DNA of 64,000 nucleotides from Psococerastis gibbosa. Its lineage: Eukaryota > Arthropoda > Insecta > Psocodea > Psocidae. The stretch is from contig OZ020487.1 in assembly GCA_963971405.1 (NCBI GenBank), positions 48,147,039-48,211,038 of the forward strand, read 5' to 3'. Positions within the stretch are counted from its first letter, which is position 1. Each line of letters opens with the position of its first letter. The notes below the pieces were generated by a model. That model searched no databases and had not been told where the DNA came from. It saw nothing but the letters and a program-made list of their open reading frames with translations. Shown here in pieces: positions 2,960-61,880 of this stretch. Position numbers and translations under genes: made by a program.

Positions 2960-4260
2960 GAACGAGGAATTAGTTAATTTCGCCGTTTCTTACCAAAAAT
3001 GTATTTTATTCATTTATATCCCTAACGTTAGCATGTCAACTGTGACTAAAGTATCTATGAATTGTATTAAAGGTTACCACATACGTATAACGCGTGAAGA
3101 CTGTTCTTTCTTGCTTCCAAGTGCTGACCCCCCAGTCTTCCTAAGCGAAACCCCGTTCAGCCAGAATTATGTTATGGTTGAGTATTGAATCGGCTGGAGT
3201 TGTAAATAAGGTGCACGCTTTTTTATAAATAATTGACATGCTGTTCACATAACCTCCCTAAAGTTCCTAGAACTGATTAAAATGTTGGTTCTATGCCAAT
3301 AGTGGAGCCTGATTATTCCAATGCATAATTTTGTCGTGCCATTGTTGAGTTGGTATTAGCCTCAAGTTGTTCATTTCAAGTGCGCAATACAAAACTTTAA
3401 CGAACCTCTGTTACAATTAGCTATGTTGAATATTGATCATCAAATTGTTGGTTTGACAAAGAAATTATTGAATCATTAATTTATACGACATTTTCATGAA
3501 TTTTATTTCAAATCTCTAGTACCGGAGGCAGAGTATTTGAAACATATTAAGATGTTCCGTTTTTTAGAATACTGGAAAGTCTACTGTTGATCCGATGCTT
3601 CAGAAAGTTCTATACCTTATTCCACATTTCACTATCATCCATCGTATTTTCCAAAAACCATTTAGCACGCCGCTATAAATTACAAGTTTTTTTAATGCGT
3701 TTGCACAAACTTTGGGATTAAACAAATCCAATGTGGGTTGCTGAGTAAGTAGACTTTTCGTTATTTATGTCCTTATTATTTGTAGCATGTGGAACTGGTT
3801 TTTATTGGCAAAGTTTCAAAGTCGCGTTGCTTGCGGAGTTTAACCCAGTTTGTGGCTGTTTTCTACGAGAAATCCTCCACCCACGACCTTTTTTACTCCT
3901 TTCGCCTGTCACTTGCAGAAATTATCCTACAAAATGTCTGCGCTGTTGTTATTGATGGGATTGCAGGGGGAAACTGCTGGATAATTTTGGCATTAAGGCC
4001 CCCACAGACGATCTTTGGAGGTGATACCGGTCCAACCGAATTTTTTTGGATTGTTGGGTAGCATACATGGCCATTCCGACTAGACACCGTTCCAATCCTT
4101 GGAATCCCTTATGTAAAGTATAGGTCAGGTTTTAATTCTTTTTTTAAACGTACAGCGTCAATTCAATGGAAATTCAATATTATTTTGATGAGAATTGTGA
4201 ATATAACTATTATCTTGCCTAAATTAAATAAAAAGGAGACACAATTTTCTTCTTGCTATA
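2960..4260. other. intergenic stretch without recognised features
   Basis: AT-rich sequence with short open frames only. The frame at 3789-4061 has no protein-like motif or codon bias. No splice-framed exon or terminal repeats were found on inspection. Confidence 0.4.
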
Positions 4261-14127: not shown

Positions 14128-17100
14128 TATTAACCAAGAAAAAACTCAATACAATTCATAGATGTCCAAGGGCCACACTAAGTGCACCCTGTGAAGGGGA
14201 CTTGCGTCGTGGCCCTCATAACAATTACAATACAAAAAAACATTACATATTACATTACATAACAATTAATTATAAATAATGGTCTAAAACACTTACAAAT
14301 CTTAGAATATTTTATCCATTTATTTATATTTAAGTTATATTATTTTATTTTATTATTATATTTATCTTACATTATTTTATTTTAACATTATCGTTTCAAA
14401 ATATCTTTAAGTTCAGTAAAAGGCATATTATAAATTATTTTTTTTGTGATTGTTCTAAATTTTAAAAAACTGTCAGTATAATACCGTACTTTAATTTCCT
14501 TAGGCAAAGCATTAAAAACCTTGACGGCTCTGAAATTTGGCGATTGTTTAAAGTGCTCAACGAAAGGACGCTCTGTTTTCAAATTATTGGCTACGCTGTG
14601 TCTGGTATGAAGGGCATGAGTGGAACTCACACTCATTATTTGAGAATTTTTTAAAGTCAATAGCAGATTAACACAATAAAAATGCAAAAAATGAGGCACC
14701 TTAAAATCTTCATAAATTTTAGTCGTCGGGGTTCTACGAGGCATAAACAAAGATATTTTTATTAATGAGTTCAAAGCTACACAGATTTGTTTGATATAAG
14801 AATCCAGGGCTCCACCCCAAGCAGCCACGGCATACTGCGCTATGGACTGTGCTATTCCAAAATAAACCTGTCTCATTAACGTCTTTGACAAGATATTTCT
14901 CAATTCAACAAACTTATATATAGTCTTCCGAAGGCGGCTTACAGATTGCTGTATTTGTAGGTGCCATTTTAAGTTTTCATCAATTAGTACAATCAGATAT
15001 TTCATATACGATACATTTCTAACTAAAAAACAATTATTACATCCATACAAATTATCACAGTTAAAGTCAATATTATCACAGTTCAAACAATTTTCACAGA
15101 ATATTTTAAGTATTTTATTTATGGGTTGACCAGATTTAGAAAGAGAAAAAGTCATGTAATAGGTTTTGTCATAATTTAATGACAACTTATTAAATTTAAG
15201 CCAATTCTGAACGTGGTTAAAAGCAAGTTGAGCTTTCATAAATGTATCTTCCCATTCATCACCTGATACTACAATGGCACTATCATCGGCATAACTAATA
15301 ATATGTCCATGAATTTGGGCATCACAAAATTCATTTTCAAAAACTAAAAACAATATAGGGCCAAGAACAGTACCTTGAGGGACACCACAAGCAAACACTT
15401 CTTCTTCACTCAAAATTTTTGAAGAAGACAGCCTAACTCTCGAAACTCTGTTACTCAAGTAGGATTTTATTAATTCGTAACAAAGTCCTCGTATACCGTA
15501 ATTGTATAGTTTTTCCAATAACAAAGAGTGGGGAACTGTGTCAAGGGCTTTGCTCAAATCAAGAAAAATTGAAATAACAGGTTTTGACACATTCAGGTAA
15601 TGATAAACTTCGTTACACAATGATAAAATTGCATCCTGAGTGCTCATTCCCGATCTAAAGCCAAATTGTTGCCGAGAAATTACATCATGTTTATCAAAGA
15701 AATTGATTAACCTCTCTTTTATGCACCTTTCAATAATTTTAGATAATATAGAAGTTAAACTGATAGGCCTCCAACTGTTTGGATTCTCCGCTTTGCCACC
15801 CTTGAAAATAGGATGTATAAAAGCAACTTTGCAATTATCTGGGAATATACCAGTATCAAAGCAGAGATTTATCAAGTGAGCAATTGGTTTAGTGAGATAT
15901 GTAGCCATTTTCTTGTAAATAGATACATCTAAATTGTCTGGGTCTGTTGTTTTAGAATTATTCAAATTTACTATTAATTTAAGTATCTCACATTCGGTAG
16001 TTGGTGACAAAAACAGGGAATCGGATATAGAACGGCTAGGAAAAATCTGTGAAGAAGGCTGCGGCACTATAGAAATTCGCGATGATAAATCACTTGCAAC
16101 ATTTGCGTAATGTTTGATCAACACATTAGCTATGCACTTGGAGTCAGCAGTAACTTCCCCAGTGGGACAAAGTACTTTTTCAATTCGATTGGATTTCTTT
16201 TTGTTACTCGTAATTTCCCGAATAATATTCCAAGTTTTACCTAGATCCCCCTGACATTCGACCAATTTTGATTTATAGTAATCCCTTTTTGTCTTTTTAA
16301 CTAAATTAAGAATCCTTGTTCGGTAATTAACGAAGTCATTACGCAAGAATGTGTTATCAGGGTTATTTCTAAGTTTTTGTTTTAATTTATCTCTCTTCCT
16401 TATTAGACCAATTAACTCATGTGTAATCCAAGGTTTAAGCTTTCTCTTCCTACTGGTATTAATATTTTTCAATAGTGAACACTTGTCAACAAGGCTTTGG
16501 AGTATTCCAGAGAAACTATTTGAAGCATCATTAGGATTAGTACACTGAGTCACACGACCCCAATTCTCATCTTTTAGCAGCAATTCAAGATTTACATAGT
16601 TAATACATCTCTTTATGATAGGTTTATTGGAGGATTGTTGTTCTGAAATCATATTATCAAGGAAAAATGAAGTAATGAAATGGTCAGTTATTTTAAACGA
16701 CGTAATTACCGAGCCAGAAGCATGGTTAGGGTCAACATTTTTGACAAAGAAATGATCGATGCAAGATTTAGTGTCTTCTGTAACTCTGGTGGGGACTGTT
16801 ATAGCAGGGAGGAACCCATTGCAGCCCAATGTATCCAAATACTCAAAGGCATGATTAGACAAAACTGAATCACAATTATTTTCATAAGCCGGGAGTATAT
16901 CAATATTTATATCACCCACTATAATATAGCTGCTTACCCCATTAGATACTCCAGACTCTAAATATTTATTTAGTGACTCAATGAAAGAATCGACTTTGCA
17001 AGCCGGAGGTCGGTAAATAGCAATAATAACATAGTTTCTGTTATCAAGTTCAAAAAAAATGGTACATGAGTTGGCACAGCAAATTAGTGATTCAATATTG

Positions 17101-18881
17101 AAATTCACCTTAATATTTGATCTACAAAAAATTACAATTCCATCGCACTTATTGTATTTAGAATAACTATAGAAAACCGCATATCCTTCAAGGCTAAGTT
17201 GCTAGCCACTATTTTCTTCAAGCCAAGCTTCAGTTAAAACGATTACATCGTAATAGCAAGGTAAACTTTGCAAAAAGGTGCAGAGTGTGTCAAAATTTTT
17301 ACGAACGCTCCTTATATTCATGTTTAAAATTTTGAAATTCATACTTTTCTCACTGTGGTACTTGTTAATGTTGTCAGACAAAATAATTGATGGTATAACT
17401 ATTGTATTGTCTAAAGAAGAAAATAAGTCGTTAACCATTTCCATTTATATTGAAATTGAAATTTATTTTATACTGACAGCTTCTCACATTCATATGAAAT
17501 ATTTTTAAATTAGTGGGTATGTCTAGGATTTTATTACCATCTTTCAGTATATGGATTTCAGGTAAAGTAGTGCAATCAATGTCTTCCATACTACCTTTCA
17601 TATCGGTTCTGTGAGAATATCAGCAAATAATAGATGATATATAATTTAAATGAAACTGAATATGCCAAACTGTAAAGTATTGTAATAAGACCATGGTCCC
17701 CGTTGAAAGCAAAATAATGTACTGTAATATGAATTAAGGTATGTATGATATAGGCTTGTATATAAATATTAGATTGAACTAACACGTTAAAACTAACTAG
17801 TCAAGTTAATAATTTAGTCAATTCGTGTTCATCTTCGATGCGAATAATGGGCTGCTTCTCTTCCTTGCGTACGCAGACGCCATCTCTCCACCATACGTAT
17901 TTGTACTTCATGGTCTCAGCATATTGTTTTGTAGCCCACAGTAGCTTTTTATAGTAAGGGCTCAAAGAATCACTGATATAGATTTTATTCAGATCATTAT
18001 TTGCATTAGTAATGTCACATTTCCTAATAGTCATTGTTTTCTTCTTTTGCAAAAATTCATTTCTTTTTTTACGATTGGAAAATTTAACAATTATGGCTGG
18101 GGTTTTACCTTTCTTTTCTTTAAGTCGGTGAGCAATGGAAATATCACTAGGATTGAGTGGCACATCGAGCTTATGGGCTATTTTGAGAACAATGTCTTCA
18201 ACAATTTCATTACCAACAAAAGGAACTTCTCTTAACTCGATACTATCATTTCTAGAATACTGGTCAGCTCTATTTGTCTTCCTCTCAAGAGAGGCAATAA
18301 TTACCTTCTGCGCTTCATTTTCTTTAGAAAGTGAAATCATTTTAGTTTCAATAGCATCAATTTTAGTAGAAAGCATGGCCATTTGATCAATACGGTCTAG
18401 TAATAGCGAGTAATTATTATTAAGGGCCGTAAGTTGGAGCTTGATGTCTTCTAAGTCGGAGAGGACGAGTTGATTTCCAGAGTCGTTCGCTTTAGTTGTC
18501 ATGTTGGAGTTGGAATTGTTTCGTTGTACACCACTCCTCGTTTTTGGGGGTGTGATCGGCATGACAGAAATAAGTAAATTTACACACTCAACTGCCTAGT
18601 CTACCTACACAAGGTGCTCCTATCCGAGTTAAACGTATATTAACCTCACACAATTAAATTTAAAACAAGACTCAAGTCGCAGAATTTAAGAACTAACACA
18701 ATGCCAATAGGGCATCAGCGACTGTGACAGCGACAGTCGCTGATGAGCCTCCGAGATACAATCTTAGAAGTCTACGCAGTTCCACTGAAGATGTCGACCG
18801 CAGATGTTGACGAAACGTTTGGAAGTTCACTTTCACTTCGACCACGGCCCATCAGCCCGGATTCTACTGGTTCCTCATCAG

Positions 18882-39730: not shown

Positions 39731-40162
39731 GTGTGATGTGTGAATTTATACAATATATACATTGTTATAATGTTTATTAGTAGTAGTACATTGTATTCAA
39801 TAGCAGAAATTTGATCTTGAAGGTTTAAACGTCTTGATGTAATTAAGTTGATGTTGGATTCCCAGGAAAAGGTGCTATATTGACATGCACGTGCAGATTT
39901 TATTGTTGTTGTGGTTGTCTGTGAGTATAAGTAGCGTAGGGACGCTAATTGGTCTCTCCATATGTATCACATAATATAATCACAGTTTAACTTTAGTCTA
40001 TGCACTAACGAACTATTTCGCGCAGGGCCAAACGAAAGGCTCCTATCGAATCCGTCTCATCTATTATAATCTACAAGTTGTTGTTGTATTCCCAAGTAGC
40101 GCTTGCGCTAATGTTCAGTTCTTCTGTTGTACTATTGTACACACTTTTACTATATCACTATG

Positions 40163-43100
40163 TCACATGTTTTCCATCAATTTAGTTTTTAATTTAGCTC
40201 GAAATATAGAAATATTTTGCGATGTTCTTATTGACGGTTCTATTTTATAATACTCTGCCACGCCTTTATGATACACTGAATTTATTCCTAAGTTCGTTCT
40301 TCTGTAATTTCTGTGCAGGTTGTTCATACTTCTTGTTCCATACTTATGTATGTCACTATTTTTCTCCATTTCCGTAGTCATGTACTCCGGGAGGTTTCCT
40401 TTCTCAAGTTTATATACAAAAGACATTGTGTCTAAGTACACACAATCCTGAAACTTGAGCATATTGGCCGCTCGGTGCAAGTCAACGATGTGGGCATCCT
40501 CTTGTTCATCCAGTATGGCTCGCAATGCTTTGTTTATTAATATCTGTATATCATTTATTATTTTCTGTGGGGCATAATTAAACATTGTACTGCAGTATTG
40601 AAGGTGAGGTTTAAGAAGACCATTAAACATAGCCATTTTCGCGCTTCTTGTTAGACAATGTCTCATTCTCCTCATAATTGACGTTTTTTTATTTACTTTT
40701 TCAATGGTCTTTTGAAAATGTTTCTTAAAATTTAACTTGTCATCCACTATCACTCCAAGATACTTAATGTCCGAAACCTTATCTATTTCTTCATCACCAA
40801 TTTTAACGTTCAAATTTATTTGTTGTGTGTTATTACATCTATTTATCAACATGAATTTGGTCTTTCCAATGTTTAAACTTAGTTTGTTCATATTTAGCCA
40901 TTCATATACAGCTCTCAGGTCTTCATTTATCCTTCGAAAGCCTTCTTCTAAAGAGTCTGTTTCTATGTATATTAACGTATCATCCGCAAACAACATGATT
41001 TTACAATATTTCAGACATTGCGGTAATTCATTGATAAATAATATGAATAAGAGCGGTCCAAGTTTACTGCCTTGTGGGACTCCAAATTTATTCTCTATAT
41101 CAGGTGATTCTTTTTTTCCAATCTTGGTTTTCTGTTTGCGCCCTTTGAGGTATTCAACTTCTGTGCTTCACCACGTATGCCAATATATTCCAGCTTCTGA
41201 ATTAGTATTCTCCGGTCAATTGTCTCAAACGCTCTACGGAGATCAAGGAATACTGTAATGACTTTTTTCTTATTTTCCACCGCGATAACCCAGTCATTTA
41301 TGACACAGCTAAGAGCAGTTTCAGTCGAATGTTTAGTTCTGAATCCTGATTGATATTTACTTAAAATTGAATTTTCATCTACAAACTTAAGTATTTGTTT
41401 CTTTATAACTGCTTCTAGTATCTTTTCCGTTGCAGGAAGTACATTTATTGGACGAAATTCATCCATAGAGGATGGTTTTTTAACTTTCGGCACCGGTGTT
41501 ATTCTAGAAATTTTTAACTGCATTGGTATATCACAATTTTGAATTGATTTCGTAACTATGTGTTCAATTACAGGTCCAATTTTTGTCCACATTTTTTTAA
41601 TGACGAAGGCATTAGGTTGCATAGAATCTTTTCCTTTTATAGTCTTAGCTATGTCCCATAGCTCCTCCGAGTTTGGTACCGTAAACGATGTCAACTGCGT
41701 CTCTTTCATAAGCAAAATATTAACATTCTTTGATGGGGATTTTTTCCCTTATAAAAAATTTATAAAAAATTTGTTGAGTTTTTCAGACGCATTTTCACAA
41801 TCTACGACGTAATATGCTATTTCCACTATTTACACTATTTACACTGTTTTCTTTTTTTACATTTAGTGCGTCTTTAATTACTTTCCATAACTTCCTTCCA
41901 TCATGTCCACATTCTTCAATTTTTTGTTTAAAATAATCATTCTTTCTACGCCTTAGTATAGCTACAAATTTATTCCTTGACATCTTAAATGTTTCCCATT
42001 TTGTATTCAATTCCACTTGGGTTGCATGGCCATTATTAAATGCCTCTTTCATTGCTCGAAAATTTCTATAATCAGTAATTTTATTATTTCTTGCTTCTAC
42101 GACTTCTGTAGTGAAATATTTGCTGTATTGTTTCTTTCTTATGTTGACATCTGGTCCTCTGGACATTTCAATTGCACTTTCCACTATCTCCGACATATTA
42201 CTGTAACACTTATCTAAATCCTCCAACATCACTTTATTGTCCTTTAGTTTATCTTTTATCCTATTTTCACATACATCCCAGTCAACCGGCCCTGGGAATG
42301 TTATTTTGACATGAGATGTTTGCATAACTCCTATGTTCACAAGTATTGAGTCATGATCTGTTACACTTATTTTCAGTACATTGTGTTTTAGGTCTTCATT
42401 ATTAGAAAATAGCAAGTCGATCATTGTTTGTGAAGACTTTGTCACCCTCGTATTACTTGTCACTAGCTGTTTCAAACCCATCATAGCCGCTAAAGACTTT
42501 AGTTTCTTCACATTTATGTCAACATCTAGGCAATTCCAATTTAAGTTAAAATCACCAATTAGGATTATATTCCTATGGCTATCTCTCATCTGATCTTGCA
42601 GTTTTCCCATTAATATCTCAATTTGTTCCAGACATGACTTTGGTGATGAAGATGGTGATCTGTATATTAAACTTATTGTTTGTTTCTCTTTTCCCAATTT
42701 CACATCAACTGTCAGTATCCATACAACAAAGTCGATTTTTACTATATCTATTATTTTATATTCAATGTCGTTTTTTATGTATAGTAACACACCCCCAGTG
42801 TGTGCAGAATTTGATTGTAAGTTTATTTCACAGTATCCGTCTAAGTGAATTTCAGAATCATCGACATCATCAGTCAGGTGCGTCTCCACCAGTCCAATAA
42901 TATTGGGTTTGTATTCTACTATTTCGTTATATACATCCAACGGGCTTTTATTGTTTAGTCCAGCTACATTCGTATAAAATATTCTACATTCCATGTACTT
43001 ATTGATATTTAGCATTGATTAATTCTGCTCCTTATTGACATTTCCACATCTCTCCTTGCTTTACATTCTTTCGCAGTTGAACCATGATCAGTGTCGTAAT

Positions 43101-47182: not shown

Positions 47183-47524
47183 TCACGTTTGTGTTTTGGA
47201 AAATAGTGCACTTCCATATTGAGTTAGTTTTCGTGATTTGAGTGATGAAATCTTTTTCTTTATTTCCGTCATATACAATTTTTTCATAAGATCTTGCTCA
47301 ATGGAAATTAAAGACAGATAATTAATCATAGACTGAGTCATGCATGTTCTTTTTTCGTTTAAAATCTGCTTTAATTTGGAAAAGCTTCTCTCACCAGTGC
47401 AATTCGTTACCATCAGGCTGAGAAAAAGTTTCAAACAGATGTCAACATTTGGAAATGTTGATTGTAAGCCGTTGTCTTTTATTGCTGGGTACATTAAGAG
47501 TTCGGAAACCGGCTTCTTATCCAT
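47183..47524 (-). pseudogene. hAT/ZMYM-type transposase C-terminal dimerisation domain fragment
   Basis: TFPNVDICLKLFLSLMVTNC followed by GERSFSKLKQILNEKR and a helix ending LISIEQDL is the hAT dimerisation signature in the form found in zinc-finger MYM-type transposase-derived proteins. Only about 113 residues are open; scraps of the same protein may extend to about 47800. Confidence 0.8.
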
Positions 47525-48104
47525 TTTCTATTTAGCCTCATTGTCCCACTCACTCGGTTCACTCAAAAAGTCTTCAATGAAGCCACGAAATAGCCCAATT
47601 TCTGATACAAAATCATTGTTCAAGTCTTCTGGTTAGGCAGCTATTAATTCCGTAGCTTTCTTCTTCAGATCCTCATCTGCGATCGTTTTAAACTTGCGCA
47701 AAAACCCAAATGTTTATTTAAGCTTTTTGTAAGCTTCATGCCGCTTTTTAAAGGCATTAGAAGCTGAGTCAATAATAAAAATAAAAGAATCCGGTACAAT
47801 TAGTATCGCCAGTAGCTACTGCTACTAGATACTGTTAAGACAATGTCGTCCACTTTAACTTTGTCTCTTGCGGTTGGTTGTCTTGTATGAATAAGTTCTC
47901 CCATGTATTCTATATGGGTCATTCTTTTTTTTATTGCCTAATGAAGTAAATTATTTGTAATTTTTTTAACTACATTTAAATAAATATTCGCACCTGGCAT
48001 TAATTAGATATACCATCTTAGGTGTCTTTATCATACGTCACTCGTGTTCATTTTCAAGTTTAACATTGCTAGAAATATTTTTACTCCAAACGGCCCTCTG
48101 AAGC

Positions 48105-51100
48105 GTCACAAGTGTTACTGGACAATTATCGATTGGTCTGCTATTCGTAAAAATGTATATTAAATTTTCTTTCAGCCTGGCTTAAAATTTAGTGTGTCCT
48201 GAACGGTTATTAAATAACTTGCACACCTTCTTCATTATTTTGCTTAAGCCTACAGGGAAGTTAAGGTCACAAGTGTTACTTTGGGACTGGTCGAAAACAT
48301 CAACATCAAGGAAAACAGATTTCTGGAGCCATCTCCCTACGCTATTTTCATTACATATTGCAGAAACAGTGAATAGGAAATCACTCAGCTCGATTTTTAG
48401 ATTTAATGCGTCTTTCTTTTGAAATAGCTTACAATTTTTGCAGCAATAACACTTGTGACTATTTTATTGTCACTAGTGTTACCACAACTCAGATTCGAAT
48501 AAAAAAAATTATCAGCTGGAAATAATAACTTTATTTTTCCTTTACATTAATTTCCTCATCAAACTCATAGAACATTCTTTTGCCCTTCATCTTCAGCTCC
48601 GGCGCTTTAAGAATTTGAATGATGTCATCGTATCTTACATACGCTATGTCCTTTTCATTAACTGTGAAGGTGGAACGGTTGTCGGTCATGGCAGACAAAA
48701 ACATTACAAGGACTTCACCTTCTTCGTCATCAAACTCTTCCTGCACTACAGCCGCATATGTAAACTCTCGGCTTTTCCTTCCCTTGCCGCTCTTTACTTT
48801 GACAAGAAGAAAAGTTCCCACAGATATATTTTTTATGTGGACTTCATGGGGTTCGAGACACTTCAGGGAAGTACCCGCAACTGCTGCACACTCAGGCATT
48901 GTTAACTCCGGTTCAGAGAGCAAGTTGGCTACCTTCATGTCGACGCCGCTACTGCATTTGCAAAATTGTCCTTTCACCCACTTATTTTCTTTGCAAAAAC
49001 AACCTACATCGCGGTACCAGATTTCGTTGGTACTTTTGTACACAATTTGATGCAGGTCCGCAGTTCCTTTAACGGGTGTCAAAGAAGGAATATTTTGCGG
49101 TGTAATATTTTCGACTAAAAAATATGTAATTCGCGACTCACATTCTTTCATAGCCTTGAAGAAATCTACTGCATTGTTTATATCGGCCCCATGGGCCACT
49201 ATGGCGTCTGCTCGCCTTTTCACAGCACCCCCAATGCCATCTGCTTCCCCCTTCCCGTGGCCGCTTTCAAAGAACGTCCAAGTACATGTATGAAATTTGT
49301 ATTTTTTTAAATTTGCGCACATTAAGTAGAAATTAATTTTTTGGCGATATTGGGAAAATGGACCGTCAGAAAAAAAGTGCATGACATGTATTTTCAACTC
49401 ATCTCTTACGTAGCTCAAGATAGGATGTAAATGAGCCCAAATGGCATTAGGGGTGTGCTCAAGGTTCGCAGATATGGTACAAAATGATTTTTTCCCCGCT
49501 GAAGTGAAGAGGACAGAAGTATGTAACGCTACCTGCTCTCGGCAGCCCCCGAAGTGAAAGCTCTGAATCTCCACTGCCTTTTTGCAGTTGTAGTTCTCTG
49601 AGAAATCCATTAACAGAACAGCCTCATAGTCGTTGCTTTCTACGTTCTGAATACAATCCTCAAACGCACGTCGCTGTTGTTGCATGTTGAATGCATGCCT
49701 CTTGAATCGTGGGGTCATCTTATCCAATACCGCGATAAGTTCCATTAAAGACCCGTAGTGTTTAACGGTACCTACAATTTTTGATTTTTTGATTTCGGTT
49801 CCTTTTACATATTGCTTTTCGAGGTATTCCCACTGAAGCCACGAAACCGTATTACTTGAAGTTAGCACGTTCTGCAGACGAAATTTTTGGTCCTTGCAAA
49901 TAATGCACTTAGAGTACATGCATTCCGCCGAGAGACTGTTGCACACGAGGGTTTCCAAATATTCTCTGGATGAGGAGCTCCCCAATGCACCAATTTGCTT
50001 GAGCTTTCGTAATATAAGGAAAATGTTTTCATGTAAGACACACCTGCATGTATCTCTTTTTCCGACTTTTGGCTCCATTACATAAAAAGGTCTGTATTTG
50101 GTGAACGTGGCATAAGACACAGCCTTATTCTCTAAGTTATATTTCAAATGCAGTTCTTTCATTGTCGCATTCATGATTCTTATCTGCTTTTTTATCTTTT
50201 TTCTAGTAATAGTCTCCTTTTTGCCTGCAGTGCAAAAACTTTCTTTTTCGTAAAAGTGGCGAATGCTCTCTTGGTGCTCGCGATTTTTTGTAAGTCCGGA
50301 TTGAACAATTCTCTTCCTGTCCTGCAATCCGAGGGCCCTCCCCACAGCCCCTTTCATTTTATATTTTTTGACAATAGCATTTGTAGCTATTAACCCAATT
50401 ATTTTTTTCTGTGCAGCAGGGGATGCCTCGTATGTGGTCGTCAGAGACTCCTTCAGTACATTAAACTCAAAAAGTTGTCTTTTTACACGAGGATTTGTTA
50501 TTTTGGCTTCTTTAGCTAACTTATTGGTCTTCGACTGAGGGGTAAGATTGTGTTTCTTTTTCTTCAGCAGTCGCTCAGCGCGCTTCCTGTACATGTCCGA
50601 AGACCTGCTCATTATTGCCAGTTGACTCTTTAACACTTCTAATTCATTTTCAAGTCTCTTATTATCCCTGTATAATTTTGAGCGGTTCCGGAGAATCGTT
50701 TTCCGGCCTCTCGAAGATGACGGAGGAGTATCTAATTCAGAATCAGGTGGAGTGTTACCTAACACACCATTAGTTGCTTTTTGACGTCTTCTTGATTCTG
50801 CTTTCCGTTCCTTCCACGCTTTTCGTTGCATACATTTTTCTTTCGTGCTTAAGTCTTTTATCTTCTTTTGCTTAGCATTTCTCAACTTGTGTTTAGCCTT
50901 GTAAGCTTCATCTCGTGCAGGGTCGCTTTTACGCTTCTCACGGTACATCTTCTGCTTTTCTTTATTTGACAACGGTGGCATTCTAGAAAAATAATTCAAA
51001 TATTAGTTATTGGAGCAGCAAGAAAGTCCTAAGTGTTACTATTTGTCACAAGTGTTACTAATTTTAAAGTAACACTTGTGACCAATAACACTTGTGACAT

Positions 51101-51445
51101 ATTATGTTCTAGCCATTCCCTCCAAACGAGATGCTAACGGTGACCATGTCAGGTTATGGTGATGCTAAGTAATCCTCTTTCCATAACTAATTAAATCGCT
51201 GCAACTGTCAAATTCTCTATAAAACTGTTCAAAAATACTGTAACACTTGTGACTTCAAATAAAAACACGCTGCAATTTCTACTACTTACCTTAAAATTTA
51301 AAAGAATAGTGTTTAAATACTCTCTTTATCACTGTTTTGGTAGTTTGCCGATCCAATATGGCTGCTCATTCTGCTGCCACTGCGCGTTTCCCGGCATTTT
51401 TCAAAAATTCTCAGACAGTAACACTTGGGACATAACACTTGTGAC
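48105..51445 (-). mobile_element. DNA transposon of unnamed family with 14-bp end motif arrays
   Basis: About 3.3 kb. The motif GTCACAAGTGTTAC, or its complement, occurs at 48105, 48266, 48446, 48469 (left) and 51026, 51045, 51069, 51085, 51240, 51418, 51432 (right), with one or two changes in some, and nowhere in the ORF between. The outermost copies form short inverted ends. A single intact 822-codon frame fills the middle. No clear target duplication was found, so the exact ends may differ by some bases. The layout matches a cut-and-paste element whose transposase binds subterminal repeats. Confidence 0.75.
48531..50999 (-). CDS. 822-aa putative DDE transposase, family not recognised
   Basis: Uninterrupted frame. 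Residues 10-75 are Lys/Arg-rich and helical (KEKQKMYREKRKSDPARDEA), possibly DNA-binding; 105-150 look like a coiled coil. A cysteine group (C318, C320, C353, C360, C365, C368) suggests zinc binding. The middle shows LLMDFSENYNCK (D465), HFFSDGPFSQYRQK (D545) and FFESGHGKGEADGIGG (E578). The gap of 32 residues between the last two fits a D-D-E RNase H-like catalytic core, but this is read by eye. A second Cys group lies near GCFCKENKWVKGQFCKC. Similar proteins occur as multi-copy unnamed genes in invertebrates, as far as I recall. The start may be Met1 or Met7. Confidence 0.75.
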   Translation of the reverse strand: MNYFSRMPPLSNKEKQKMYREKRKSDPARDEAYKAKHKLRNAKQKKIKDLSTKEKCMQRKAWKERKAESRRRQKATNGVLGNTPPDSELDTPPSSSRGRKTILRNRSKLYRDNKRLENELEVLKSQLAIMSRSSDMYRKRAERLLKKKKHNLTPQSKTNKLAKEAKITNPRVKRQLFEFNVLKESLTTTYEASPAAQKKIIGLIATNAIVKKYKMKGAVGRALGLQDRKRIVQSGLTKNREHQESIRHFYEKESFCTAGKKETITRKKIKKQIRIMNATMKELHLKYNLENKAVSYATFTKYRPFYVMEPKVGKRDTCRCVLHENIFLILRKLKQIGALGSSSSREYLETLVCNSLSAECMYSKCIICKDQKFRLQNVLTSSNTVSWLQWEYLEKQYVKGTEIKKSKIVGTVKHYGSLMELIAVLDKMTPRFKRHAFNMQQQRRAFEDCIQNVESNDYEAVLLMDFSENYNCKKAVEIQSFHFGGCREQVALHTSVLFTSAGKKSFCTISANLEHTPNAIWAHLHPILSYVRDELKIHVMHFFSDGPFSQYRQKINFYLMCANLKKYKFHTCTWTFFESGHGKGEADGIGGAVKRRADAIVAHGADINNAVDFFKAMKECESRITYFLVENITPQNIPSLTPVKGTADLHQIVYKSTNEIWYRDVGCFCKENKWVKGQFCKCSSGVDMKVANLLSEPELTMPECAAVAGTSLKCLEPHEVHIKNISVGTFLLVKVKSGKGRKSREFTYAAVVQEEFDDEEGEVLVMFLSAMTDNRSTFTVNEKDIAYVRYDDIIQILKAPELKMKGKRMFYEFDEEINVKEK

Positions 51446-51956
51446 TGCAATAGCGGACATAGAGAAAAGGTCCACTGGAGTCCGGTCCGTTTTGAAAACG
51501 AAAACGAGTATGCTGTATATATACTAAATGTGTTCTATAAGTTGCATTATCAACGGAATCAGTTAAATAATTGTCACATTTTCTACAATTTTCCACATTT
51601 GAAGCTAGAAAATGTCCCCATGGACAGTTTCAGACAAGCCGTTTTGTTAGTTATAGACTAAAAAATTTGCCTATAGTACGGTCACCGAAACAGTTGCATA
51701 CTGTCTAAATGTAGTTAAACTAGTATAGTTTTAAACTTTCACTTAAAATTTGAAAAAAAGACTGTCTTAGTTGGCTAAATGGGCGATTGTAAGCTTCGGA
51801 CAAGGATCGGCAAGATTTTTTAGAATGACCCCTATGCAGAAACGCTACTTCAAATGTTTTCGCATTTCTGGAGAGTATTGTAAGCGATTGGTCAGGTATT
51901 TCGTCAATTTCATCCACGTCTGGGTTGCGTTGTTTTAGTATGTAAGTGTAAGTCTT

Positions 51957-55142: not shown

Positions 55143-58100
55143 GGGTAAAGTAGGTAGTTATTGGCACCCATAAAAATTTATTTGACTTTAAAGAACTACC
55201 ACATTTTAAGTTTTCATTTCACAGTCATTTTTTATGTTTCATACCTTTAGGAACCTTTCTTTTTTCGGCAACTGATTCTATTTTCAGATTTCCTTTCCTA
55301 TTTGTTGGTGAAAAAAAAAATGTGGAAAATAGTGCTTTGCTGGGGTTATTGGCATACAAATCTCAGTTATTGGTATCCCTTTAAGGTAGTTATTGGCAGT
55401 ATTCAGAGAATTACTACTTAAACCTAAACCCCTCTTTTAACTGGGTTGGGACAAGAAGTTTAATAGAAAAAACATTTAAAAGATAAGAAAAATCAAGTCT
55501 ATATTGACAACATCTCAGAAACATCATACACACCTCTCGCATTTTTCAGTTTCGGAGGATCTATTTTTTTAATAACAGTACGACAATTGGTCTTTTCTGT
55601 CAGGAAATTTCCAAAAATCGCCATACTTTTCCATCACGCTGACATTGATTTCTTGTTTCCCTACCTTCTCAACAATACCTGGGTATATTTTACCTTCATA
55701 GCGGACTAAGACATAGGAATTAATTTCGAATTCTTCATTACCAACTGTAGGCGATTCATTGTCAATGTCACTTTCATTCCATTGGGAGTCTTCACCGTCA
55801 TCACACAGGTTGCTGGGTACATCTGACATTTCTTCGTTGCTGCTATCACTGGTACTAGCCCTATTTCCAGCAGCTTTCTTTCTCTTACTTGCTTGCATCC
55901 TTAACTTTTCCTTTTTTCTTTTCTCCCGCTCTTCTTTCTTTTCATTCTTTGCCTTTGCATCTGCTTCTTTCTTAGCTCTCTTACATTCAAACAGCTCCTG
56001 CCACTTTGATGAAATGACAAATGGGGTCTTCTCCGTCTGACGTTTCGACTTTCGTTTTGGAGTGCCTGGATAGTGGAGAAAATTTTCTATGGCTGAACTT
56101 TCATCTGTGGAATGTGGGCTTGGTATATCAAGGTTAGGCCTAGATGTGTTTTCTTGTTCCATCTTATCTTTTGGCTTTGGTCCCTCGATGTCTGTTGATT
56201 TGTTGTTCCCTGTGGCTGAAGTTTCATCTGTGGTCAGTGTACTAGGTGTAGTGGTACCAGGAATAGGCCTTGATGTGTCTTCTTGTTCAGTAGTATCTTC
56301 TCGCCTTGGTGCCTCAATGTCTGTTGATTGCTCCCTCCCTTGCTTAAAAGCGTTGATAAGTTTTTTATGCTTCTCCTCAACCCCACAATCTTCTGCCATA
56401 ACAGCCTTGAAGGTTTTGTATGTGATAGTAGCAGAATCAAGCAGACCCTCTGCATGCAAAGATGATGAATTTCGGGCACCCAGGCACAACAAATCATTAA
56501 ATGCATTTGGGTTCCAGGGGTGAAGTCCTGTTTTCCTGAACCCCTTTATAATCCACTTTTCTTTCACTCGCGTAAGAGCCTTTGCCAAGACAGGTGCAAA
56601 AAACTCTTTAGTCAGTGTACCATCAACATTGCAGCGGTACCAGTCACCAACTGCAGTTTTCCATTCTGTTTTCAGTCCCTTGAAAACCGCTACATCACAT
56701 GTTTGTAAAATTCTTGTCGAATTGGGGTAAAGGGCCACGAGAACTACACCTTCCTTACTGCACAGCTGACTCAGGTGATATGTGAGGTGCGTTTTGTGGC
56801 CATCCAGAAACAGCAGCACCGGCATGGTGCAGTTTTGCTTAAAGTGAGGAATGAGAACATTAGCCACATACTCATAGAACACTTCTGATGTCATCCATCC
56901 ATTTTCAGACAGGCCTATTACCCACGAGCTCGGAACATTCTTTATTAGCTGGGCAGGAGGCCGTTTGTATGGATATATTACCATAGGTGGACATTGTTGT
57001 CCAGATGCTGAACATGTGAACATGACTGTTATGGACATTTTGGCATAAGATTTTTCTACTAGATTGACGTTTCGTATCCCTTTCTCGGCGATCACTTCGC
57101 CTGATTTCGGGTTCAGCAAAAACCCTGTTTCGTCACCATTGAAGATGCGGGTGGGATCATGAAGGATATCAGCAACTCCTTCATCCTTAAGGTACTGCTC
57201 CACCTGCTGGAACCAACCACGCAAATCTTCAGCAGCTGCGTACGCACTGGCAAACGTGACTGCTTCTGGCTCCCGGGTTGTCAAACATGGGTGTCTTTTC
57301 ATGAAGGCCCGGTACCATGCTTCTCCCGGCATATTGTCTTTAAAAACTGTCACTCTGCCAGTTTTATCAAGAAACTTTTGGACTGATTGCTCTAGGCAAA
57401 GTTTTTTCTGGGGGAACCCCTTCCGCGCACTTTTTAGCAACCATCGTTCAAGGGCTGCTTCCTCTTCTTTGGAGAGAACTGGGGCTGGTCCCTTTCATGT
57501 TTTCTGGAAATTGTTGCTCAGCCGAAACTGAATTGTTGCTCGAGGAACGCCGAACTCTTTGGCTGCCGCTTTTTTGGACAGCAATCCATTTTTCACAGCT
57601 TCTACTGCTTTATCCAGTTTTTTTGGATCATAATTGCGGGTCTTGGGCATTTTCTAAAAATAAAATAAAAATACAGTACAGCAGTAAATTGGCATGCCTG
57701 GGCCCATGGCTGGGTTCACACAGTAATTGGCATGCTCTGTCTAGTATCTTGGCACTGGGGCCAATAACTAGTAAAAATGACTCAATCAACTTCCGGAACA
57801 GTCATTATGATGACAAGAAAAAATACAACAAAATCAAGATGCAATACACAATTAAATCAGCAAATCACAAATTCCCAGTTATTGACAGGGGTGCCAAGCA
57901 CTAAAAGAGACACAACAATTTGTTGCAGTTATTGGCATGATGCTAATTAATATTTGAAAGTAATCTCTAATTATCTTTGGCATCTTGACTTCCTCTGCAT
58001 GTCTTGTCACCAATGTATGCCACAACCACCTAAATTCTTAAAAAAACATTATTAAATAAAGTTAAAAAAGAATGTGTGTACTTACTTCCCTGGTCAATAT

Positions 58101-59761: not shown

Positions 59762-61733
59762 TTAATGACAGTCATTGTAACATGGAAGGCACATTTGCGG
59801 CTGGTTGTCGCATGTGGGACAATAAGTCAAAATATTTTTGGACTTTTTACTTGCATCCACCCTAGAGAATTCGTTTTTTATCATTTTTTTTGTAGCAGCG
59901 GATACATCGACGCCTCACTTTTTTATCCCCCTTCATGCGGATGATCAGTTCATGGTGCTTTCCTTGCCTCTTTCTTTCAGCTACTTGTAACTCGCATTCT
60001 GGGACTGTCAACATTTCTTGAACTAGCATTTCTCTAAAAACTCTTATTTGAATTTTCTTCTTCGTTATCATTTTGTAAAGTACCCATGCGTTAACTACCG
60101 ACATTTCAGTAATTAGTGAGATTGCCAGTTTTCTATACCATTTTATCCCCTTCCTTAGGGCTGGTGCATAAGAAGCCATCTGGTCCGACAGATCTATACC
60201 CATTTTCCCATTATTATAGGCAAGAATGCACTCTGGCTTCTCTGTTGCCCTTTTCTTTTTCTTCTTGACGTTAATTATGCTTTCAGTATCTTCAGCTGGT
60301 TTTCTTTTCACCGCTTGGTCCATGTCTGCAGTTTTCTCATTTTCGGTTTCTTTCTGAACCAGTTCTTCTTCCTCCTTTTCAGCTTCTTTCTCAACCATTC
60401 CTACTTTGTCACTTTGTGCATGATCAGACAATGTTGTATTATTTGCATCCTTATTCTCAGACTTTTTACTGTTGTTTACTTTTGGAGGAACCGGCAGTAG
60501 CTTAGGGGAGTGCTTGGTCGATAGCATTCGCACATCTCGTGTGTCCTTTCACTTCATCACAAGGATACCATTTTGATCTTCCGCAGACACAACTTCCCCC
60601 CTCACCAGTTTTTTCGTCATGACATCTTTAGGGTTATCTTTTCTTTTGGCCCTCAGAGTGCCAACAAGATGGGTATTTTTATCAAGCAAGTTCTTTGCTA
60701 AAGAATAGCAAGTATAAAAGTTATCGACGGTCAATGTCCTACCCTCGTGAAGTAGCCCCTCACACAATTGGAGACAGACGTTCTCGGCCAATCCTCTCTG
60801 TACCTGTCCCGACGTCAATTTACCTGCATACACATTTACTACCCTTTACCCCTTACTTTAATACCCAACCAAGGAACACAATTTGAAAAGCTTGATTCCG
60901 TATCTATGGGCCTTATTTGGAAGGTATTGCCTGAACTGTAGTCGTCCACGCCAAGGTATCAAACTCTCATCGATTACGATATTTTCCCCTGGAGTATACA
61001 AACTCCTGAAATTCTTCACAAGCGTGTCAAGAAGGCCCTGTATTTTGTAAAGACGGCCCCCGTCAACAGCAGCTATGTTATCGACGAAATAAATATTAGA
61101 CAGTAAAGCCAAATATCGGTTCCTTGACATGTATTTACCAGGAACCGCTCTCTTGTAAAGTTCTTTTTTTGACCAGTTATCTTGTAACCGCCCATAGTGT
61201 ACAAGACCCATTGAAATTGTTATTGCAATGAATGTAACAATCTCTTCATCGGTCGTTATCTTCCACTTTTTCATTCGGCTATGTTTTTTGGTAATTCCCT
61301 TACGACGTTCTTCTGCATACTTGTTGGTCTCGTCCACGATAAGTTTTAATACGTCACTGTTTATTATTTCAAGATAAATTGCTTTTGGTGATGGAGTCAG
61401 GTTGGGATTCTGAATTCCACCTTGCCCAGCATAGGGAAACACTTTATGGTTGCCAACATATGGACCCCATGATGGAGTACAGGCGCTCGTATCTAATCCT
61501 TCTGCTTCATCATATTCTGTGTCTTGCTTTTCGCCATCATCGGAAGCGGCTCCATCATCGGACTCTCCCTTATCCTCTGAATCGCTCTCAGATTCGCTAT
61601 TGCGCCAATCACGGTCACTACCGTCTGCAGCGAATTCGGATGCCTCGCTTTCGTCACCTGTATCCTCCTCGTTGAACTCTTCCAATGCCTTGGCAAGTTT
61701 ACTTTCTGGTATGACTCTGCGACGTCTCTCCAT
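59762..61733 (-). pseudogene. piggyBac transposase, lightly damaged
   Basis: Start MERRRRVIPESK at 61733; an acidic N-terminus, then VTFIAITISMGLVHYGRL and the first catalytic D in VIDESLIPWRGRLQFRQYLP. A small insertion at about 60835-60857 shifts frame after KLCSLVGY. Next TLTVDNFYTCYSLAKNLL (second D), a TGA where a Trp is expected at 60549, and MGIDLSDQMASYAPALRKGI (third D). The frame shifts again near 59860, and the Cys-rich end YCPTCDNQPQMCLPCYNDC finishes at 59762. All domains are present; no TTAA-bounded ends were found with confidence. Confidence 0.9.
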
Positions 61734-61825
61734 CTTCTGAAGAAATAAGACAATAAAATAATGAGATATGGTATTTAGAATATTCCGAATACGCAAATAA
61801 ATTAATGAATAATGATTTTTTGTTA

Positions 61826-61880
61826 TGTACTAGACCAACCTAGCGGAGTAAGGGCTGTGAAGCCTCTCATACAGTTGAAA
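61826..61880 (-). mobile_element. SINE family S fragment
   Basis: CCAACCTAGCGGAGTAAGGG matches the body of the SINEs at 11566 and 36165. Only the distal part remains; it sits about 90 bases upstream of the piggyBac start. Confidence 0.7.

Follow-up and report, generated by a model that had tools for sequence, protein, structure and literature searches.

What is the long open reading frame (ORF) that lies between two clusters of a 14-bp motif in the genome of Psococerastis gibbosa? The stretch in question (contig OZ020487.1, positions 48,147,039 to 48,211,038 of the forward strand; 64,000 nucleotides, hereafter the window) had received an initial annotation from its letters alone, in which positions 48105–51445 were taken for an intact transposon of an unnamed family carrying motif arrays at both ends. 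It proposed to align genomic copies, to search the protein against Pfam and to ask whether the motif accompanies the ORF elsewhere. We find that the locus holds a complete cut-and-paste DNA transposon that was recently amplified. We consider it probable that the element is an autonomous member of the Sola superfamily, most likely of the Sola2 type as described in print, and that its transposase uses aspartates for catalysis and docks on the motifs.

Element boundaries, target sites and recent amplification

The genome (409 Mb in 68 contigs) contains 13 full-length copies of the element, here called family 1, five of them on contig C13. These 13 places were fetched with 2-kb flanks and aligned in register to fix the ends. 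The copies lose their identity abruptly on both sides. The element, its ends and flanks and an empty site have these coordinates in the window:

47916–51831, transposase gene on the minus strand: whole transposon, 3916 bp
47916–47925: terminal inverted repeat GGGTCATTCT, left in the window and thus at the 3’ end of the gene
51822–51831: terminal inverted repeat AGAATGACCC, right in the window and thus at the 5’ end of the gene
47912–47915: left flanking 4 bp, ATAT, unequal to the right flank in this copy
51832–51835: right flanking 4 bp, CTAT
40101–40437, plus strand: paralogous empty site for another copy (L018)

Thus, the element was rightly seen as an intact transposon, whereas its extent was drawn too short: the motif arrays as element ends had to be rejected, as copy identity continues to 47916 and 51831, and the arrays are subterminal, separated from the true ends by 189 bp on the left and 386 bp on the right. 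Perfect 4-bp target duplications flank 12 of the 13 copies, the copy in the window being the sole exception; mutation or recombination between copies could account for its unmatched flanks. When these flanks were joined and searched for in the genome as an empty site, they matched only themselves. Two other insertion sites were more informative. For L018, a related sequence resembling a long interspersed nuclear element (LINE) spans the insertion point unbroken, with ATAC present once, and the match stops 20 bases past this point (18/20 identical). For L010, where the best 40 of 3200 candidates were scored, 39 of the 41 matches listed cross the junction at 79–84% identity and the remaining two are the copy’s own flanks. 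Both empty-site tests confirm the boundaries 47916–51831.

Taken together with family 2, a relative in the same genome that is described below, perfect 4-bp duplications were found in 24 of 27 copies. They comprise 16 different sequences, the commonest being ATAT (6/24), with TTAA in none. A or T accounts for 79 of the 96 duplicated bases, versus 62% in the flanks of family 1, and the target consensus is centered on T-ATAT-A.

Since only two positions, 47957 and 51064, vary among the 13 copies and all of their ORFs are open, the amplification of family 1 is a very recent burst, which bears out the recent activity suspected initially. The two sites define three haplotypes (T-G, n = 2; T-T, n = 3; G-T, n = 8), no copy carries a private substitution, and the encoded protein is 100% identical in 13/13 copies. 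When the leftmost 180 bp and the rightmost 386 bp were used as queries against the genome, in searches that pass over very common words, each gave 13 matches, all belonging to full copies; neither separate end fragments nor small internally deleted derivatives were thus revealed.

The predicted transposase and its candidate catalytic acids

The stop-to-stop frame on the minus strand spans 823 residues (48531–51002); counted from the ATG, it comprises 816 codons (48534–50981). The features relevant to catalysis are as follows:

48531–50981, minus strand: transposase ORF, 816 residues plus stop, open and with identical protein in all 13 copies
49605–49607, minus strand: codon of the first proposed catalytic aspartate, D459 (MDFSENY), from alignments of relatives
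49365–49367, minus strand: codon of the second proposed catalytic aspartate, D539 (SDGP), from alignments of relatives
49239–49241, minus strand: codon of the third proposed catalytic aspartate, D581 (HGKG..DGIGG), present in six of six rows of alignment A2 and in 9 of the 10 relatives covering the position

The acid triad named in the initial annotation (D465, D545 and E578) corresponds to D459, D539 and E572 in our numbering from the ATG. Its first two members are well conserved in relatives, with 79 residues between them, and were retained; the third is probably wrong, judging from the alignments, in which D581 is better kept. Ten relatives cover these positions, not all independent of one another, as L037 is near L036 and L058 near L059. 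In nine of them the aspartate of the DGIGG block is retained, the exception being L055, which also has E in place of both D459 and D539 and looks degenerate. Alignment A2 is invariant at H575, G576, K577, G578, D581, G582, K588, G598 and H644, whereas position 572 varies. The original proposal of E572 as the third catalytic acid would draw on the glutamate found there in seven of the ten relatives (L035, L036, L037, L038, L055, L057 and L060), including both complete open frames, L036 and L038; this has to be set against isoleucine in L053 and threonine in the near-identical L058 and L059.

Structure predictions disagree on the third acid and speak neither for nor against an RNase H fold. RNase H enzymes usually carry their third acid at a C-terminal helix (PMC3985635). 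Prediction of the whole protein, of very low confidence (mean predicted local distance difference test score, pLDDT, 38.5), places E572 after a strand and D581 immediately before the next helix, while prediction of residues 435–625, likewise of very low confidence (mean pLDDT 33.0), does not place D581 ahead of a helix. On balance we regard E572 as an improbable third acid and favor a pattern of three aspartates (DDD; D459, D539 and D581, with 41 residues between the last two), all better conserved than E572. In the N-terminal part of the protein we also noted a leucine-zipper-like stretch.

Subterminal motif arrays

At up to two mismatches, the motif GTCACAAGTGTTAC occurs 11 times in the element, in both orientations and never inside the ORF, with four copies to the left of the uninterrupted frame and seven to the right, as originally described. 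In 300 dinucleotide shuffles of the element, the mean was 0.01 copies and the maximum 1. All 65 genomic occurrences of the exact 14-mer fall into 13 places, with five in each; these places are the 13 copies with their open ORFs, so that the motif does accompany the ORF at other loci. The reversed pattern has one genomic occurrence. The individual copies and a predicted intron in the 5’-untranslated region (5’-UTR) are:

48105–48118, plus strand: exact motif, outermost of the 3’ array
48266–48279, plus strand: exact subterminal motif
48446–48459, minus strand: subterminal motif with one mismatch
48469–48482, plus strand: subterminal motif with one mismatch
50983–51289, minus strand: predicted 5’-UTR intron, AAG/GTAAGT ... 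TTTTTCTAG, from sequence only; would hold five of the seven 5’ motifs
51026–51039, plus strand: motif near the ORF start with two mismatches
51045–51058, plus strand: exact motif near the ORF start
51069–51082, minus strand: exact motif near the ORF start, inverted relative to the copy at 51045
51085–51098, minus strand: motif near the ORF start with one mismatch, 16 bp from its neighbor
51240–51253, minus strand: exact subterminal motif
51418–51431, minus strand: subterminal motif with one mismatch
51432–51445, minus strand: subterminal motif with one mismatch, outermost of the 5’ array

In gene orientation, the 5’ motifs start at positions 387, 401, 579, 734 and 750 (direct) and at 774 and 793 (inverted) of the element, ahead of the ATG at 851, and those past the stop codon at 3350 (inverted), 3373 (direct), 3553 and 3714 (both inverted). 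The predicted intron has its donor at −308 relative to the ATG and its acceptor directly ahead of the ATG. In another relative, family 5, a donor-like site also lies at −308 and an acceptor-like site just before the ATG, and acceptor-like sequences are present near the homologous ATG in families 2 and 3. Because five of the seven 5’ motifs fall inside this putative intron, an effect of the motifs on expression is possible. The idea that the 14-mer is an imperfect palindrome, i.e., a site for a dimer, was dropped, since by eye this feature is not kept in the motifs of other families.

Related families and the layout of their arrays

A protein search of the same genome, in which the best 55 of 110 candidates were scored so that family counts are lower bounds, revealed related families whose proteins are roughly 30–45% identical to that of family 1. 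In family 2, at least 19 frames are open, and one further copy is frame-shifted. The 14 copies inspected (L038–L051) represent three distinct sequences of a 4010-bp element. It resembles family 1 in its terminal 10 bases, its 4-bp duplications (perfect in 12/14), its homologous protein and its subterminal array; it differs in its protein, 31% identical to that of family 1 (P0001) over the alignment and 34% in the local match, in its motif, GTCCCCTCCGTGCA, and in the opposite orientation of its 3’ motifs. Compared by eye, its terminal sequences form an inverted repeat of about 24 bp with one mismatch. The two copies lacking a matching duplication are L041 and L050; L041 alone has an altered 5’ end, with TTA in place of GGG.

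Family 3 comprises a single full open frame (L036) plus a partial near-copy (L037). Its protein is 40% identical to that of family 1 and its motif, GTCATAAGTGTAAC, departs from the family 1 motif at two of its 14 bases; the array layout is nearly equal and the 3’ end reads AGAATGGCCC, whereas its 5’ terminus was not found. In family 4 (L035; motif GTCATGAGTGCAAC) the match to the family 1 protein starts at residue 134–137, and family 5 (L054, L062 and L063) has the motif GGCAGGACTGTTAC. Most other relatives are single and decayed; a scan for repeats revealed no more than a hint in L053 (a 9-mer occurring three times) and nothing in L057.

To compare layouts, the motifs were scanned at up to two (family 3), three (families 2 and 4) or four (family 5) mismatches, with a single 4-mismatch match within the coding part of family 5, and 5’ positions were measured from the second motif of a pair spaced by 16 bp. 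The resulting 5’ layouts were −363/−349, −171, −16, 0, +24 (inverted) and +43 (inverted) in family 1; −364, −173, −16, 0, +21 (inverted) and +40 (inverted) in family 3; and −397, −173, −16, 0, +20 (inverted) and +36 (inverted) in family 5. Past the gene, motif spacings were 23/180/161 in family 1, 25/172/170 in family 3 and 20/182/158 in family 4, where one motif has three mismatches; among these three, inversion of the first 3’ motif is specific to family 1. The distance from the start of the last motif to the 3’ end is 203 bp in both families 1 and 3. In family 2, direct motifs are found at 181, 378, 579 and 734, an inverted one at 757, and all 3’ motifs are direct. In a test with random motif positions, which covered the 5’ arrays of three family pairs, layouts agreeing as well as those of families 1 and 3 arose in 5 of 20000 trials, and as well as those of families 3 and 5 in 28 of 20000. 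Around the 16-bp pair, families 1 and 3 agree at 22/28 bases inside motifs versus 12/52 outside, and families 1 and 5 at 17/28 versus 13/52.

What is new here is the combination of family-specific motifs in a largely common layout within non-coding DNA that has otherwise diverged to background. The motifs are best read as candidate binding sites for the transposase, with which they would co-evolve. They might instead serve a transcription factor of the host that activates the gene, in line with the five of 11 copies that lie in the predicted 5’-UTR intron near the ORF. Four copies, however, lie 3’ of the gene, and all 65 exact genomic matches reside inside the 13 transposon copies; moreover, because the motif letters vary by family within one nucleus, with the layout largely kept, the protein reading them is most likely element-encoded and not a host factor. 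We therefore attach little credence to a host factor and prefer the transposase as the reader of the motifs.

Assignment to a transposon superfamily

The assignment to Sola2 is made because of the AT-rich 4-bp duplications, the element size and the proposed DDD-type acid pattern. Sola elements are described as having a DDD transposase, 4-bp duplications, mostly a size of 2–9 kb, and terminal inverted repeats of at least 11 bp (PMC10741241), and for Sola2-type elements of two amoebae, PMC3627910 gives AT-rich 4-bp duplications (ATAT, AAAT, ATTT) and terminal inverted repeats of 12, 13 or 21 bp. Families 1 and 2 both have AT-rich 4-bp duplications, and at 3916 bp and 4010 bp both fall into this size range. 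Family 1 thus probably adds a new family to a kind already known: the label ‘unnamed’ holds at the family level, while the superfamily-level traits point to Sola2.

Other superfamilies were rejected. PiggyBac elements duplicate TTAA. They were ruled out by the absence of TTAA among the 24 duplications and by the ends GGG..CCC, the ends of piggyBac being CC..GG (PMC10045372); a profile comparison of the family 1 protein with the piggyBac-like frame of the window likewise gave no match. Tc1/mariner/pogo elements (TA duplications, DDE_1/DDE_3) were ruled out by the 4-bp duplications and the lack of a Pfam match. The 4-bp duplications also speak against hAT, whose duplications are 8 bp long and whose Dimer_Tnp_hAT domain found no match, and, along with the element’s ends, against CACTA/EnSpm, with its CAC termini and 2–3-bp duplications. 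Ginger, which has an integrase-type protein and TG-type termini, is ruled out by the lack of a Pfam match and the GGG..CCC ends.

Several observations weigh against our interpretation. The likeness to Sola2 is a likeness to printed descriptions; the perfect terminal inverted repeat of family 1, at 10 bp, is just below the printed minimum; and the family 1 protein matched no family in Pfam (0) or NCBIfam and no entry in PDB (0), in agreement with the original failure to match it to a known family. The Pfam result is a fair negative because, in the window, this release recognizes a hAT remnant along with proteins of the pogo-like, piggyBac-like and Tc1-like kinds. In addition, the two low-confidence structure predictions conflict on secondary structure near D581, and the window copy lacks a matching duplication. 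As for the arrays, family 2 shares the layout only in part, with its 3’ motifs reversed; the motif scans found neither a 5’ array in family 4 nor a 3’ array in family 5 (one partial 3’ match in the latter); and random layouts matched as well as those of families 1 and 5 in 1796 of 20000 trials, which alone is not significant.

The short inverted repeat, the comparison by description and the lack of any meaningful match in the libraries searched, with other transposases of the window recognized by the same Pfam release, would also suit a separate, undescribed superfamily that combines a DDD triad with 4-bp duplications. Nevertheless, duplication length and composition, size and the proposed DDD pattern all agree with the printed Sola/Sola2 descriptions, which makes such a superfamily an unlikely alternative to the Sola2 assignment.

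Further searches added little. The strongest PHROGs matches (phrog_7930 ‘lipoprotein precursor’, E = 0.0068, residues 164–308; phrog_769 ‘transcriptional repressor’, E = 0.14, residues 254–297) are taken as chance matches. Relatives outside this genome were not confirmed in viral contigs (including a pattern scan), prokaryote genomes or phages, a result of little weight, as animal transposons are not expected there. A literature search with motif and terminus words gave no relevant title among the matches listed, and peptide words occurred in none of those listed. The motif pair DFxENY / HGKGxxDGxGG may mark a group of animal proteins that is widespread but carries no annotation.

Proposed mechanism and significance

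We envisage that the ORF encodes the transposase, whose D459, D539 and D581 would cleave the DNA at the ends GGGTCATTCT and attach these ends to target strands with a 4-bp stagger. The basic N-terminal part of the protein may dock on the subterminal 14-bp motifs and thereby help to unite both element ends, and the motifs clustered immediately ahead of the ORF may allow the transposase to tune its own expression. A bolder proposal, which we hold to be doubtful, is that co-resident families are kept apart by private versions of the docking array, with largely fixed geometry and drifting letters resulting in orthogonal recognition, in a superfamily that is perhaps undescribed. To our knowledge, Sola transposons have been little studied at the bench. 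The 13 near-identical intact copies of family 1, along with family 2 and its open frames, would be suitable material for initial biochemical work, and the related families, which differ in motif yet largely agree in layout, offer a test of transposase/binding-site co-evolution and cross-mobilization.

Other elements in the window

A remnant of a hAT dimerization domain (47183–47527, minus strand) lies about 390 bp off the left end of the transposon. In a pogo/Tc5-like transposase (55572–57494, minus strand), the last ~55 residues resemble the C-terminal module of the Sola2-like transposases (E = 0.0011 with hhalign, though at a probability of 20.6; 7e-5 and 2e-4 by pairwise blastp); to judge from these alignments, the same small C-terminal module may be common to unrelated transposases. 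An ORF with Baculo_FP domains (17801–18595, minus strand) adjoins a reverse-transcriptase ORF (14388–17201, minus strand), and the two are possibly frames of one LINE-like element. Two frames at 59862–61829 (minus strand) match DDE_Tnp_1_7, which we take to be of the piggyBac type, and apparently represent a broken piggyBac-like element. Elsewhere in the assembly, a telomere-type repeat, (TTAGG)n, the usual kind in arthropods, is located close to the end of contig C1.

Comparison with known systems

Subterminal motif arrays with a conserved layout, as seen in family 1, are not mentioned in the available parts of the Sola2 descriptions (PMC3627910, PMC10741241), and in the available part of the former, the word ‘subterminal’ refers to Helitrons. 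The same sources agree with family 1 in AT-rich 4-bp duplications, short terminal inverted repeats, one large ORF and a size of 2–9 kb (PMC3627910, PMC10741241). En/Spm (CACTA), the P element and hAT differ from family 1 in their ends and duplication length, and no such Pfam domain is present in family 1. In these three systems, short transposase-binding motifs are repeated near both ends, some of them near the promoter, and the subterminal repetitive regions of En/Spm and the internal binding sites of the P element and hAT are work-alikes of the arrays of family 1.

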